From: an uncultured Prochlorococcus sp.
GTDB lineage: Bacteria; Cyanobacteriota; Cyanobacteriia; PCC-6307; Cyanobiaceae
Assembly (NCBI GenBank): GCA_902583265.1
Contig: CACHVD010000001.1
Coordinates: 62,001 to 126,000, forward strand
Reading direction: 5' to 3'
Length of the DNA stretch: 64,000 nt
Every line of letters starts with the position of its first letter. Within the stretch, counting starts at the first letter, position 1. Positions 6,674 to 59,143 of the stretch are shown piece by piece. The notes under the pieces were generated by a model, which did not search any database, was not told the DNA's origin, and saw only the letters and a list, made by a program, of their open reading frames with translations. The position numbers and the translations under genes were made by a program.

Positions 6674-7546
6674 ATGGAGCTCTGTTCTTTTTTAACTTTA
6701 GATTCATTCATAACAGATCCTTTGACTCATGACTTTATGAGAAAAGCACTTCTTATGAGTTCATTAGTTGCAGCTGTTTGTGGTTTTCTTTCAAGTTATT
6801 TGACTCTTAAAGGATGGGCTTTAATGGGAGATGCAGTGTCACATTCGGTAATGCCTGGTGTTGTGGTGGCTTATGCATTAGGTCTTCCTTTCTCATTAGG
6901 GGCATTTATTTTTGGAGTTGGTTCTGTAGCATTGATAGGGTTTATTAAGCAGAAATCTAGAGTTAAGGAAGATACTGTTATTGGGTTGGTATTTACCGGA
7001 TTTTTCGCTCTTGGAATCGTATTGGTTTCTAAGATTAAAAGTAATATTGATCTGCACTCTATTCTTTTTGGTAGTCCTTTAGGAATATCACTTTCAGATG
7101 TAAAACAAACTATATTCATTTCTTTATTGGTAGTAATCCTTTTATCAATTTTTAGAAAAGATTTAATGCTTTATTGCTTTGATCCTAGGCATGCAAAAAC
7201 AGTTGGTATTAATGTATTTTTTCTTCATTATTTACTCCTCACATGCTTATCTTTGGCAGCAGTTGTCGGCTTGCAGTCAGTTGGAATTATTTTGGTAGTT
7301 GCAATGTTGATTACACCAGGGGCAACAGCATATTTACTTACGGATAAGTTTGATAATATGACAGTAATTTCAGTATTAAGTGCAATAATCTCAAGCCTGA
7401 TAGGAATCTATGTTAGTTTTTGGTTTGATCTTGAAACAGGTGGATCAATTGTCTTGGCACAAACTTTTATATTTTTATTTGCTTTTTTATTCGCTCCAAG
7501 ATACGGAATATTTAAGTTAAAGAAATTATTTGCTGGGTATAAATGA
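6674..7546 (+). CDS. mntB: Manganese ABC transporter, permease
   Basis: This 290-aa integral membrane protein of the ABC-3 family has about eight hydrophobic segments spread over its whole length. ALMGDAVSHSVMPGVV and VGIILVVAMLITPGATAYLL are the conserved permease motifs of the zinc/manganese ABC-3 family. It completes the C-A-B gene order known for the cyanobacterial mnt operon. Its stop overlaps the start of the DUF4336 gene by 4 bp (ATGA), a sign of translational coupling. Confidence 0.93.
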   Translation: MELCSFLTLDSFITDPLTHDFMRKALLMSSLVAAVCGFLSSYLTLKGWALMGDAVSHSVMPGVVVAYALGLPFSLGAFIFGVGSVALIGFIKQKSRVKEDTVIGLVFTGFFALGIVLVSKIKSNIDLHSILFGSPLGISLSDVKQTIFISLLVVILLSIFRKDLMLYCFDPRHAKTVGINVFFLHYLLLTCLSLAAVVGLQSVGIILVVAMLITPGATAYLLTDKFDNMTVISVLSAIISSLIGIYVSFWFDLETGGSIVLAQTFIFLFAFLFAPRYGIFKLKKLFAGYK

Positions 7547-56990: not shown

Positions 56991-57191
56991 TTATCTTAGT
57001 AGAGATAGATACCATTGCCCGATTACTATTATCAATATTGTAAGAACAAAAGGGAAAGCAGGATATCTTGTCTGAAAATCTGCTGGTGGCCAAGGAGACC
57101 AAGATATTAGCCTTCCCTGAGGTTCGTTTGAAAAAACTTTTTTCTTAGATTTCTTGGATATTAAATTATCTGTAGCAAATCCTTTACTCAT
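56991..57191 (-). CDS. Small single-pass membrane protein
   Basis: This 66-aa protein has a basic N-terminal half (SKKSKKKVFSNEPQGRLISW), a PWPPADFQTRYPAFPF segment and one C-terminal helix. It lacks the ExxNxR chlorophyll-binding motif of high-light-inducible proteins. No family recognised. Confidence 0.7.
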   Translation of the reverse strand: MSKGFATDNLISKKSKKKVFSNEPQGRLISWSPWPPADFQTRYPAFPFVLTILIIVIGQWYLSLLR

Positions 57192-57271: not shown

Positions 57272-57332
57272 CGGAGGGAGGGGGATTCGAACCCACGGTG
57301 CCCTTACAGACACGCTAGTTTTCAAGATTAGA
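57272..57332 (-). repeat. 3'-half tRNA-Ser remnant
   Basis: This 61-bp block aligns without gaps to 58100-58160 of the intact tRNA-Ser(TGA), with 57 of 61 positions identical. It covers the 3' acceptor strand, T arm, variable arm and anticodon loop, then homology stops abruptly just past the anticodon. The rest (57333-57360) has no D arm or matching 5' acceptor. It is not a functional tRNA. Such 3' tRNA fragments usually mark the far end of an element inserted at a tRNA gene. Confidence 0.85.
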
Positions 57333-57405
57333 TGGTGTTCAGTTATACCAATGGATTTGATAGTGCTAGGCGAAACAAAAAAACCGAAAGTTGACCACCT
57401 TTAAT

Positions 57406-57480
57406 TTATGTGAATTCCTCAGCATTAACAGCAGTAGGTAAAGCGATAGCAGCTAGAAGTGGGAGTAGTAAGCGTTTCAT
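57406..57480 (-). CDS. Signal-peptide-only minigene or gene remnant
   Basis: This 24-codon frame begins MKRLLLPLLAAIALPTAVNA and continues four residues to a stop. That is a complete export signal, with basic start, hydrophobic core and AxA cleavage site, and no mature protein. Its ATG overlaps the stop of the upstream 140-aa membrane gene. It may be the leftover 5' end of a deleted secreted-protein gene. Confidence 0.55.
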   Translation of the reverse strand: MKRLLLPLLAAIALPTAVNAEEFT

Positions 57481-57899
57481 TTAATTATTAGGTCACTAGT
57501 TTCTTCTAAATTGGTATATTTACGAAAAATAGAATAATTCAAGATTATTAAAACTGCTAAAAATATATGGAATTGTTTCCCATAGGGGATTCCCATACCA
57601 TTTATGGCTACCCATGTATTTGTATAAAATGCCCATATATTTGTTATGAGAAGAGGAATAAAAACGCGTATTTTCTTTAATTTTGAACGAATATTCACAA
57701 GAATACTGAAGGTACTAAAAATCCCAATTATTAATCCAATTGAAGTATATCCATGCAATATCCTCATTGAAGCATCGGAGTGTTCATGAGCAAAAAAAGC
57801 CGCCAAAATATTTAATGGCACTAAAGTACCTGGCTCAGGACCAAAAAAATCTCTAGCTCTACCAAATAACCAATTAATGGTATTTGTATAATTTTCCAT
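57477..57899 (-). CDS. Multi-pass membrane protein inside the tRNA-bounded interval
   Basis: The 140-aa protein has about four hydrophobic segments (GTLVPLNILAAFFAHEHSD, ILHGYTSIGLIIGIFSTFSI, IRVFIPLLITNIWAFYT, FHIFLAVLIILNYSIF). No family recognised. It lies between the 3' tRNA fragment and the intact tRNA-Ser, so it may be cargo of the inserted element. Its stop overlaps the signal-peptide minigene by 4 bp. Confidence 0.7.
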   Translation of the reverse strand: MENYTNTINWLFGRARDFFGPEPGTLVPLNILAAFFAHEHSDASMRILHGYTSIGLIIGIFSTFSILVNIRSKLKKIRVFIPLLITNIWAFYTNTWVAINGMGIPYGKQFHIFLAVLIILNYSIFRKYTNLEETSDLIIK

Positions 57900-58050
57900 A
57901 TAAAAAACGAGCTAATTGCCCCTTTATTTTAGTTCGACTGTCAATTAAGATAAGTTTACATTTAGTTGACCGAAAGTTGACCACTTTTCTTCATATAATT
58001 ACGTGAAATTACATGAAATCTAACGAAATCAGCCCAAGATATTAATCAAT

Positions 58051-58072
58051 AAAAAAACTCCTAAAAGGAGTT
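58051..58072 (-). terminator. Terminator of tRNA-Ser
   Basis: On the minus strand a 7-bp stem (AACTCCT/AGGAGTT at 58056-58072, 3-nt loop) is followed by a T run complementary to 58051-58057. It begins 28 bp after the 3' end of the tRNA. Confidence 0.8.
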
Positions 58073-58099
58073 GTAACTTGAAAAGTCAGTTGTGGAGCA

Positions 58100-58186
58100 C
58101 GGAGGGGGTGGGATTCGAACCCACGGTGCCCTTGCAGACACGCTAGTTTTCAAGACTAGAGCCTTAAACCACTCGACCACCCCTCC
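58100..58186 (-). tRNA. tRNA-Ser (TGA anticodon)
   Basis: The 87-nt minus-strand gene has acceptor GGAGGGG paired to CCCCTCC plus discriminator G, an anticodon stem CTAGT/ACTAG with loop CTTGAAA (anticodon TGA at 58150-58152), a long class II variable arm, and a T arm with GTTCGAATC. The 3' CCA is not encoded. All stems are intact, so this copy should be functional. It lies between two tRNA-Ser half fragments. Confidence 0.96.
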
Positions 58187-58560
58187 AGGCAAAAATATTT
58201 AATTTTTTGCACTTTAATTATATCAAAAGACGGTTAAATTTTTTGGAACTGATCTGGAACCGCATGTCGATCTGTTTCCCAAATTATTGGTACAACTAAA
58301 ACATAATCTAGATTTCAAGACTAGAGCCTTAACACACTCGACTGCCCATCCAGAGGGTTATTCAATTTCATTGAACTTGCTTAGCCCAGTATAGAAACTA
58401 AGTCACAGCCAAGAAGATCTAGCTAATGTTTTACTACTTCACTATTTAGGTATGTTTGGAATAATGAGAAAAACAAAATAAAATAAGGGTAATTAACAAT
58501 ATTTATTTTCAAGAATCTCTTTTCTTGCTAATAATAGAAAGCCAATAAAAAAATATAAAA
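58187..58560. other. Gene-free region upstream of tRNA-Ser
   Basis: This 374-bp stretch has no convincing gene. It holds the promoter of tRNA-Ser, a GGAAC...GGAAC direct repeat near 58243-58260, and the 5'-half tRNA-Ser remnant at 58307-58353. The part from about 58360 to 58560 is AT-rich and presumably contains the promoter of the DUF3303 gene. Confidence 0.55.
58307..58353 (-). repeat. 5'-half tRNA-Ser remnant
   Basis: This 47-bp block aligns without gaps to 58142-58188 around the intact tRNA, 40 of 47 identical. It runs from the anticodon arm to the 5' acceptor strand and 2 bp beyond. Homology to the 3' half is absent. It is the complement of the 3'-half fragment at 57272-57332: both break at the anticodon arm. 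Confidence 0.8.
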
Positions 58561-58833
58561 ATGCTTTACGTTCAGCATTGGTCATTTAAGACTGGATATC
58601 ATCAAAAAGGTGCGGAAAAATTTCTTGGTGGAGGAGGAAATTATCCTGGAGTTGAAATAATTGGAAGATATCATGCGCCAGGATCTCTAGAAGGGTGGAT
58701 AGTCTTAAAGACAGATGACCCACAAGCGATATATCAGCATGCAGCTGAATGGGGTGAATTCCTTAATTGGGAGACCACACCGGTATTTACTGATGAAGAA
58801 GCCGGTCCAATAGTCGCCAAAGTCTACTCATAG
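58561..58833 (+). CDS. DUF3303 family protein
   Basis: This 90-aa protein begins MLYVQHWSFKTGYHQKGAEKF and has GVEIIGRYHAPGSLEGWIVL and WGEFLNWETTPVFTDEEAGP, a good match to the DUF3303 pattern of small ferredoxin-like-fold proteins. Function unknown. It is 49 bp upstream of another small gene on the same strand. Confidence 0.82.
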   Translation: MLYVQHWSFKTGYHQKGAEKFLGGGGNYPGVEIIGRYHAPGSLEGWIVLKTDDPQAIYQHAAEWGEFLNWETTPVFTDEEAGPIVAKVYS

Positions 58834-58882
58834 TAAGTAAGTGAAATTCGATCTACAATAAGGGGCAATTAGGTCCTTTTTT

Positions 58883-59143
58883 ATGAACACACTCATCATT
58901 TCAACTTTTAGCTGCACATTTGATGAATTCAAAACTGACGTTTCTGGATTTATAACAGCAATGGGTAAAGAAGTGGTTTCAGAATATGAGTTCGTACAAG
59001 CTGGCGAGCATAAATCTCATTTACTCATGAACGTCTTAGATATGGGAGCACTTGAAGCTGAAATGACTTCAGATGCAGCTAAAGAGTGGGATAAAAAAAA
59101 TAATTGTAAGGATACCGTCTATGCAATTGAACTTGTTGAATAA
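58883..59143 (+). CDS. Small conserved protein (DUF3764-like)
   Basis: The 86-aa acidic protein reads NTLIISTFSCTFDEFKTDVSG, then VSEYEFVQAGEHKSHLLMNVL and DAAKEWDKKNNCKDTVYAIE. It resembles small alpha/beta-barrel dimer proteins annotated DUF3764 in marine picocyanobacteria; I am not fully sure of that family. Function unknown. Confidence 0.75.
   Translation: MNTLIISTFSCTFDEFKTDVSGFITAMGKEVVSEYEFVQAGEHKSHLLMNVLDMGALEAEMTSDAAKEWDKKNNCKDTVYAIELVE

Follow-up and report, generated by a model that had tools for sequence, protein, structure and literature searches.

How can a single tRNA gene lie between broken halves of itself and still be intact? The question is raised by a locus in a 64,000-nucleotide stretch of an uncultured Prochlorococcus sp. 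(GenBank assembly GCA_902583265.1, contig CACHVD010000001.1, positions 62,001 to 126,000; the whole stretch is hereafter called the window). ARAGORN finds one tRNA in this 64-kb window, a tRNA-Ser(TGA) at 58099–58187 of the minus strand, and on the same strand the order of pieces is a tRNA 3′ half (57272–57332), the intact gene and a tRNA 5′ half (58307–58353). Our analysis indicates that this tRNA-Ser(TGA) site has very probably been used at least twice by tyrosine-recombinase elements crossing over in the anticodon loop. Comparison with relatives points to two independent integrations, one on the 5′ side and one on the 3′ side, rather than to one tRNA-carrying element. The working tRNA seems to be a chimera of two element-borne halves, the outer fragments together making up the original gene.

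The displaced 3′ half matches 58100–58160 of the intact tRNA at 57/61 nt (93%), and 58308–58353 of the 5′ half matches 58143–58188 at 40/46 nt (87%). The blastn E-values of the two halves against the tRNA, obtained in a small set searched, are 6e-22 and 1.6e-10, which makes chance a poor account of them. Each half contains the whole anticodon arm, about 18 nt being common to both, and homology ends just past this arm. The original prediction, made from the letters of the window, had described two halves that flank an intact tRNA-Ser(TGA) on one strand and break at the anticodon arm, and the alignments and the ARAGORN call confirm this description; for the 5′ half, the 40 matches stand, over 46 positions rather than 47. 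It had also held that the joined halves would give a complete though decayed tRNA-Ser, and a scripted join of the two outer halves at the anticodon loop is indeed called tRNA-Ser(TGA) by ARAGORN, at a relaxed threshold only and not at the default. The pieces are as follows (loci and genomes of relatives are given by L and G numbers, the window's own genome being G000).

57272–57332, minus strand: displaced original 3′ half of tRNA-Ser(TGA), probable scar of a 3′-side integration; equivalents in 12 of the 31 loci with a 3′ insert
57333–58098, strand not assigned: 3′-side cassette separating the old 3′ half from the intact tRNA; such an insert is absent in 42 of 73 relatives, and in L025 (G124) part of the left end of this cassette appears again behind a further 3′ half, an arrangement like that of a tandem array
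58099–58187, minus strand: intact tRNA-Ser(TGA), probably a new 5′ half joined to a new 3′ half (ARAGORN; Rfam tRNA, 57.3 bits)
58188–58306, minus strand: 119-bp spacer, probable relic of a 5′-side element and new tRNA upstream region; similar spacers in 18 other loci
58307–58353, minus strand: displaced original 5′ half of tRNA-Ser(TGA), probable scar of a 5′-side integration (40/46); absent in L078

Alleles on the two sides of the tRNA gene

Three features frame the locus and served to compare it across relatives.

56991–57191, minus strand: 66-aa open reading frame (ORF), conserved 3′-side flank; in 42 of 73 named relatives, 160–241 bp separate its start from that of the tRNA; no Pfam family above cut-off and no NCBIfam match
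58354–58560, minus strand: original tRNA upstream region with the presumed old promoter, contiguous with an intact tRNA in L078 (genome G123)
58561–58833, plus strand: DUF3303 gene (PF11746, 84.7 bits), conserved 5′-side flank

The relatives found through the 3′ flank gene are Prochlorococcus and related single-cell or metagenome assemblies. Allele counts are based on 80 named loci anchored on this gene, of which the 73 that have both the flank gene and an intact tRNA were counted and the other 7 were excluded; loci L113–L132 repeat some genomes of L033–L112. A locus was scored as having no 3′ insert when the flank gene starts 160–241 bp from the tRNA start, as it does in the 42 of 73 loci listed above; 40 of these lie at 160–184 bp, and the remaining two, L036 and L076 at 240–241 bp, may retain an insert remnant. 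A 3′ insert is present in the other 31 loci, with a distance of 396–6531 bp between flank gene and tRNA, and 12 of the 31 show the 3′-half scar. On the opposite side, a 5′-half scar stands upstream in 28/73 loci, 14 of them at 165–167 bp as in the window. Both kinds of scar occur together in 9/73 loci.

Each side is also found alone. Seven of the 14 loci with the 165–167-bp 5′ scar have no 3′ insert, and three of the 12 3′-scar loci have no 5′ scar within reach. In L078, the DUF3303 gene, the old upstream region and the intact tRNA are contiguous, with neither 5′ half nor spacer, and a 3′ insert is present. Because of these one-sided alleles, we regard the two sides as having been gained separately. 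The old upstream flank, taken as DUF3303 in the same orientation (the reversed gene of L037 not being counted), is present in 10/73 loci. When 266 genomes were searched, 10 of them, including the window's own, had among the matches listed an old-upstream match that ends at the anticodon arm, with the 5′ half following. The original prediction had looked to an empty site in relatives for support; such alleles exist one side at a time, and none empty on both sides was seen among the relatives examined. Eleven loci from a different genus also have the 3′ flank gene, with no tRNA called by ARAGORN within about 1.5 kb.

Breakpoints, insert ends and integrases at the site

The breakpoints recur at one place, and the DNA beyond them varies. 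The TTGAA of the anticodon loop is kept in 52 of 59 5′-scar rows (some genomes appearing twice) and is then followed by several different sequences, 48 of the 52 rows being distinct in this respect. On the 3′ side, TTGAAAACT starts 29 of 33 scar rows, 26 of them distinct by the preceding sequence; one of the remaining rows, L097, matches another tRNA by chance.

The ends of the inserts fall into families that include integrase-bearing elements. Single-linkage clustering of 56 left ends of 5′ inserts from loci below L153, with some genomes represented twice and the window row compared separately, gave groups of 29, 19 and 6 and two singletons. Every group holds at least one integrase-bearing insert (8.7 kb; 7.8 kb; 8.4–17 kb, respectively) together with shorter integrase-less inserts, mostly a 165–168-bp unit in the first group and mostly inserts of about 1–1.4 kb in the second. 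Many short cassettes without a recombinase have end families in common with recombinase-bearing elements. The window spacer by itself is 77–87% identical over 111–118 nt to the spacers of 18 other loci; a second copy in L090, one of the 18 loci, (72%) and the spacer of L118 (69%), which has a 7.1-kb insert, are outliers.

Paired short direct repeats stand at a similar distance from the crossover across inserts, and three repeat sites in the window could be integrase arm-type sites.

57383–57402, minus strand: GTGGTCAACTTTCGGT repeat, far-end copy, a putative arm-type site for an integrase; it matches the near-end copy at 95% (direct repeat D5)
57965–57988, minus strand: near-end paired repeat GGTCAAC-TTTC-GGTCAAC with an 11-bp period, putative arm-type sites (by eye and repeat D5)
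58245–58260, minus strand: paired GTTCC repeat with an 11-bp period, putative 5′-side integrase arm-type sites (by eye and pattern match)

GTTCC-type pairs with the 11-bp period belong to the first 5′ group and GTGGACT-type pairs with a 14-bp period to the third, and GGTCAAC-TTTC-GGTCAAC-type pairs of period 11 occur in a number of 3′ inserts. A GTGGTCAACTTTCGGT-like repeat stands before the core at a similar place in many 3′ scars of relatives, among the rows listed, and the GTTCC pair is found at both ends of the integrase-bearing element of L133. The longest paired word averages 6.76 in 51 5′-scar arms, as compared with 4.75 ± 0.15 after shuffling, and 5.77 in 26 3′-scar arms, as compared with 4.65 ± 0.2; none of 200 shuffles reached either observed mean. 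Paired words of at least 7 occur in 28/51 5′ arms and 8/26 3′ arms. This test covered loci below L153, with repeated arms, weak pieces and the window row set aside. In another group of 3′ inserts (L078, L057, L123, L125 and L047), GGGGGATTT repeats are seen; L057 and L078 have several of them near each end and L123 has a tight cluster of five. These are perhaps another arm-site family.

The elements themselves are seen in relatives. In L133 (G043), an 8.7-kb element lies between the intact tRNA and the displaced 5′ half and encodes tyrosine recombinases of 405 and 211 aa, a VapE-like helicase, a primase-polymerase (Prim-Pol) and terminase-small-subunit-like and excisionase-like proteins, a satellite-like gene set. 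Pfam matches the 405-aa recombinase weakly (18.6 bits; cut-off 27.1), and the R, R, H and Y positions, which we take to be the catalytic positions of a tyrosine recombinase, are invariant in 14 aligned members of its family. Matches to this integrase, distant ones included, occur in 53 of 266 genomes at E 1e-10. Among 30 fetched integrase loci, 26 hold an intact tRNA-Ser(TGA), and in all 26 the integrase gene is upstream and divergent, its far end 1359–1874 bp from the tRNA; the other four, one of which is L166, have no intact tRNA in the locus. Likewise, the 46 recombinase profile matches in the fetched relatives include 41 at loci with an intact tRNA, every one of them upstream of it, and the other five, among them L059/L166, are at loci without one. 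Relatives thus show the likely agents: elements of satellite type whose tyrosine recombinase gene stands immediately upstream of the tRNA, and one contig with a related recombinase on the downstream side. A protein search with the L133 integrase found no relative in viral contigs, phage records or solved structures. At 754–1371 of L133, a resolvase-type serine recombinase lies 3′ of the tRNA, the tyrosine-recombinase element lying 5′.

On the 3′ side, the only integrase-family member found downstream of an intact tRNA is on the viral contig L213. Its 381-aa integrase gene (326 bits to the family profile) starts 184 bp from the tRNA end, and the near end of the contig's insert has a 28/33 identical stretch to the window cassette that includes part of the arm-like repeat. 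At 6842–6800 of L213, the first codons of this 3′-side integrase gene read through an anticodon-arm-like sequence, and the beginning of the gene may thus coincide in part with an att-like core. A further viral contig, L214 (IMG/VR 3300030451_002253), with a phage RNA polymerase and an integrase, contains a tRNA-Ser(TGA) 3′ half at 2139–2197. The 3′ scar and flank at 1610–1790 of L131 (G006) match L214 over 181 bp at 82%; the G006 scar looks like the trace of a T7-like cyanophage integration in Prochlorococcus, as judged from this match.

Proposed order of events and alternative explanations

The three pieces, the one-sided alleles, the anticodon-loop breakpoints and the integrase-bearing elements of relatives can be read directly in the sequences; the recombination behind them is a reconstruction. 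The two events would have proceeded as follows. In the 5′ event, an element with an upstream region and a tRNA 5′ half in its attP would have integrated at the anticodon loop, pushing the old 5′ half upstream, so that the gene was completed by the element's own start and 5′ half; of this element, only the 119 bp of the spacer would remain. In the 3′ event, probably the later one, an element whose attP carried a tRNA 3′ half and the DNA that follows it would have integrated, pushing the old 3′ half downstream behind a one-gene cassette. We infer that the 5′ event came first because the 5′ scar is more decayed and is common to relatives without the 3′ insert. Integrase-bearing inserts of relatives span 7.8–17 kb and the two inserts of the window 766 bp and 119 bp; such short recombinase-less cassettes may have been moved by an integrase acting in trans.

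Several observations weigh against this account. First, no recombinase was found in the window's own genome, which is 64% complete in 30 contigs: G000 has no match to Pfam Phage_integrase at E 1e-6 and none to the two integrases of relatives (E 1e-10; E 1e-15 among the matches listed). The statement of the original prediction that no recombinase gene remains thus holds as far as this incomplete genome can be searched. No excised circle was seen. Second, 19 of the 31 3′-insert loci have no recognisable 3′ half, which implies that decay or other insertion routes also occur. Third, a single 5′-empty allele was found and it carries a 3′ insert: in the 266 genomes, the L078-type junction is found at full length only in G123, by contig coordinates the L078 genome, among the matches listed. 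For dozens of further rows listed there, the match begins only about 65 bp ahead of the tRNA, so that an old-like upstream region is also found next to other DNA. Fourth, the window arm and that of the integrase-bearing L133 have only a short direct match (28 nt, 79%, E 0.02). The shuffle test of the arms overstates independence, arms and scars being partly related by descent, and 10 of 89 random control stretches (mean 5.01) also have a paired word of at least 7. A sigma-70 consensus scan calls no promoter in the 119-bp spacer, in which a TATAAT at 58217–58222 is seen by eye. Finally, in L059 (genome G129, also L166; 6133–6284), an integrase gene of the L133 family immediately precedes a tRNA-Ser 3′ half, with neither a 5′ half nor an intact tRNA on the 6.2 kb of contig at hand; none was present for G129 (83% complete) among the matches listed in the 266-genome search. 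This could be a larger 3′-side element or a truly split gene.

The L059/G129 arrangement is one of three points that favour the explanation originally proposed, namely that one element of about 1 kb with a complete tRNA-Ser inserted into the anticodon arm and complements the split gene. The other two are that the joined outer halves give a decayed tRNA-Ser accepted by ARAGORN at the relaxed threshold, and that actinobacteriophage elements split a tRNA and supply a whole one (PMC10865867). We nevertheless consider a single element of this kind very unlikely, as the ends beside the 5′ and 3′ scars differ in sequence and repeats, and each side is found without the other in relatives, L078 included. 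The latter finding led us to reject a one-step, tRNA-bearing insertion. What survives of the proposal is that the outer fragments are the halves of the original gene, with a break at the anticodon arm of the kind that site-specific integration makes, and that the intact gene is a replacement.

It is also highly improbable that the 5′ half with its spacer is merely an ancient, immobile relic which the whole clade has kept, the 3′ cassette being the only trace of an integration in this lineage. The near-constant length of the 165–168-bp unit and the mostly 77–87% identity of its spacer are what vertical inheritance gives. However, the unit is missing between intact flanks in L078 and stands in tandem in several genomes, and its left end belongs to a single-linkage family with the integrase-bearing L133, though the direct match is short.

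Ordinary duplication can copy part of a tRNA gene, and a tandem half with a 166–167-bp spacing repeats in L133, L067 and L121, but the view that the halves are decayed tandem or segmental tRNA duplications, formed without site-specific recombination, is barely credible in the face of anticodon-loop breaks with differing DNA beyond in 52/59 and 29/33 scar rows, of integrase genes at such junctions in relatives, and of a spacer unlike the original upstream region (by eye; no repeat pairs the two), on which ground a tandem duplication of the gene start was rejected.

Beyond two integrations by tyrosine-recombinase elements, a broader role of the site can be proposed tentatively, with the balance tilted somewhat to the doubtful side. 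The tRNA-Ser(TGA) gene might be a two-way dock for single-gene cassettes inserted in trans by satellite integrases, each unit carrying attP arms and a tRNA half. Arrays would grow outward, the 5′ halves and the 3′ halves each to their own side, and the tRNA would be rebuilt each time, an integron-like capture with a tRNA gene as the dock.

The locus illustrates a way in which an abundant, streamlined marine bacterium can acquire genes at both ends of a tRNA gene and pile them up there with the tRNA kept. The scars make the history of integration readable, each half corresponding to a past event, and order and cargo could be counted across many single-cell genomes. Integration from upstream gives the tRNA gene a different upstream region; this mode is reported as rare among bacteria, and it could alter expression of the tRNA. 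Such loci also allow a direct test of whether satellite integrases move short cassettes in trans.

Cargo, other tRNAs and comparison with known systems

The 3′-side cassette contains three further features.

57406–57480, minus strand: 24-aa frame with a secreted-protein-like start, overlapping the end of the 140-aa ORF (candidate, by eye); similar short stretches in other loci
57477–57899, minus strand: 140-aa cassette ORF, hydrophobic by eye, with no Pfam or NCBIfam match
58056–58072, minus strand: terminator-like hairpin after the tRNA, inside the cassette (stem 7, T tail); 2 such sites in the region as compared with 0.9 expected

Copies of the 140-aa ORF in relatives are 78–97% identical. 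Among 13 loci scanned, three (L004, L016 and L023) have an intact tRNA-Ser(TGA) and 10 have no tRNA. A similar hairpin 3′ of the tRNA occurs in 7/31 loci with a 3′ insert versus 2/42 without, a crude pattern, the two no-insert loci being those at 240–241 bp. At E up to 0.1, Rfam gives only the tRNA and two sub-threshold plastid matches on the opposite strand. Near gene ends, at 57900–57924 and 58860–58884, stands an inverted pair (92% over 25 nt) of a repeat that contains GCTAATTGCCCCTT; this repeat has similar copies in many fetched relatives and no Rfam family match.

The cargo is varied. Thirteen of 20 cassette proteins have no Pfam family at E 0.01, and the other seven have TPR, methyltransferase, UDP-glucose dehydrogenase, rhomboid, sulfotransferase, DUF6882 and pseudouridine synthase domains. 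Of 10 proteins from six 3′-insert loci, 8 have restriction-modification, helicase, sigma-70, M23 peptidase or NO VEIN-type domains, one has a short SHOCT domain and one has no domain; there is no recombinase among them. On the 3′ side of L053, L087 and L094, inserts of 5–6.5 kb adjoin the tRNA; they contain restriction-modification or restriction-like genes and constitute a small defence hotspot.

Partial tRNA copies also stand at 7 of the tRNAs in 19 loci around other recombinases in the genus. The tRNA-Pro(TGG) of L141 is flanked on both sides, by a 5′ half at 8.3 kb upstream and by a 3′ half at 4.1 kb downstream. For the tRNA-Arg(TCT) of L140, a 5′ half is found 9.1 kb upstream, and L139 has a 5′ piece upstream and a nearly whole tRNA copy downstream. 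In L137, L138 and L147, 3′ halves are found downstream only. L136 is a misfit, its tRNA-Pro(TGG) 3′ half lying 3.4 kb upstream of the intact gene, the reverse of the usual order. Two-sided rebuilding is probably not confined to tRNA-Ser, the numbers being small.

Restoration of a tRNA 3′ half by integrating elements is ordinary. The 3′ side of the locus resembles canonical tRNA-targeting elements and prophages in its break at the anticodon arm and its junctions of an intact tRNA and a 3′-half scar, and the 42/73 loci without insert provide the corresponding insert-less allele. It differs in that the insert is a sub-kilobase, one-gene cassette without a recombinase, consisting of the 140-aa ORF and the 24-aa frame (L213 does encode an integrase), and in that the tRNA is also rebuilt from the other side. 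There, a displaced 5′ half is present, and a new upstream region and 5′ half are joined to the gene, as in elements that restore a 5′ half.

Tycheposons of Prochlorococcus were reportedly described by Hackl et al. in Cell in 2023 and are also treated, second-hand, in PMC10872708 and PMC11389934. The present locus is similar to them in genus, tRNA target and cargo, and in the satellite-like genes with tyrosine recombinases of relatives. Tycheposons span 4–200 kb and carry a recombinase (PMC10872708); by comparison, the window inserts are 0.77 kb and 0.12 kb and no tyrosine recombinase was found in them, whereas the elements of relatives at the same tRNA do carry one. A separate group of picocyanobacterial integrases, distinct from those of tycheposons, lies upstream of tRNA-Phe or tRNA-Cys, with an integration mechanism described as not known (PMC10187409). 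As compared by description only, these elements are like the present ones in having a tyrosine recombinase upstream of a tRNA, variable cargo including restriction-modification genes, and a serine recombinase nearby, as near L133, and differ in using other tRNAs (PMC10187409).

The 5′ side finds its parallel in archaea. The pTN3-like integrases target the 5′ half of a tRNA, which is rebuilt with an element-borne upstream region (PMC8371274). According to the same account, bacterial tRNAs keep their own promoter with very few exceptions, and integration in the 5′ half is seldom met in bacteria (PMC8371274). Actinobacteriophage tRNA-dependent lysogeny has in common with our locus the integration in a tRNA gene, a possible loss of function and paired arm sites (PMC10865867). 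This is distinct from the present locus in that a whole phage tRNA complements the broken gene, whereas here the gene appears to be rebuilt at each junction; one-sided alleles keep an intact tRNA across the junction, with L059/G129 as a possible exception elsewhere in the genus. It is the closest match to a single tRNA-carrying element and does not fit the locus.

The additive island fGI-2 at a tRNA-Lys of Methylophilaceae is similar in its variable inserts, from 330 bp up, and its repeated tRNA-derived sequence; it differs in its 20-bp 3′ repeats, and no 5′ halves are mentioned in the available part of that source (PMC10872708). In Prochlorococcus MIT9313, pseudo-tRNA-Met genes lie near a putative phage attachment site (PMC2784084). 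Integrons are composed of attC-bearing cassettes and IntI; here, the shared site is a tRNA half. In the literature searched, which comprised mostly journals outside subscription and did not extend to Hackl et al., no description of two-sided half replacement at one tRNA was found. As compared with these systems, restoration of the 3′ half is known, replacement of the promoter and 5′ half is reported as rare in bacteria, and the occurrence of both at one gene appears to be new.

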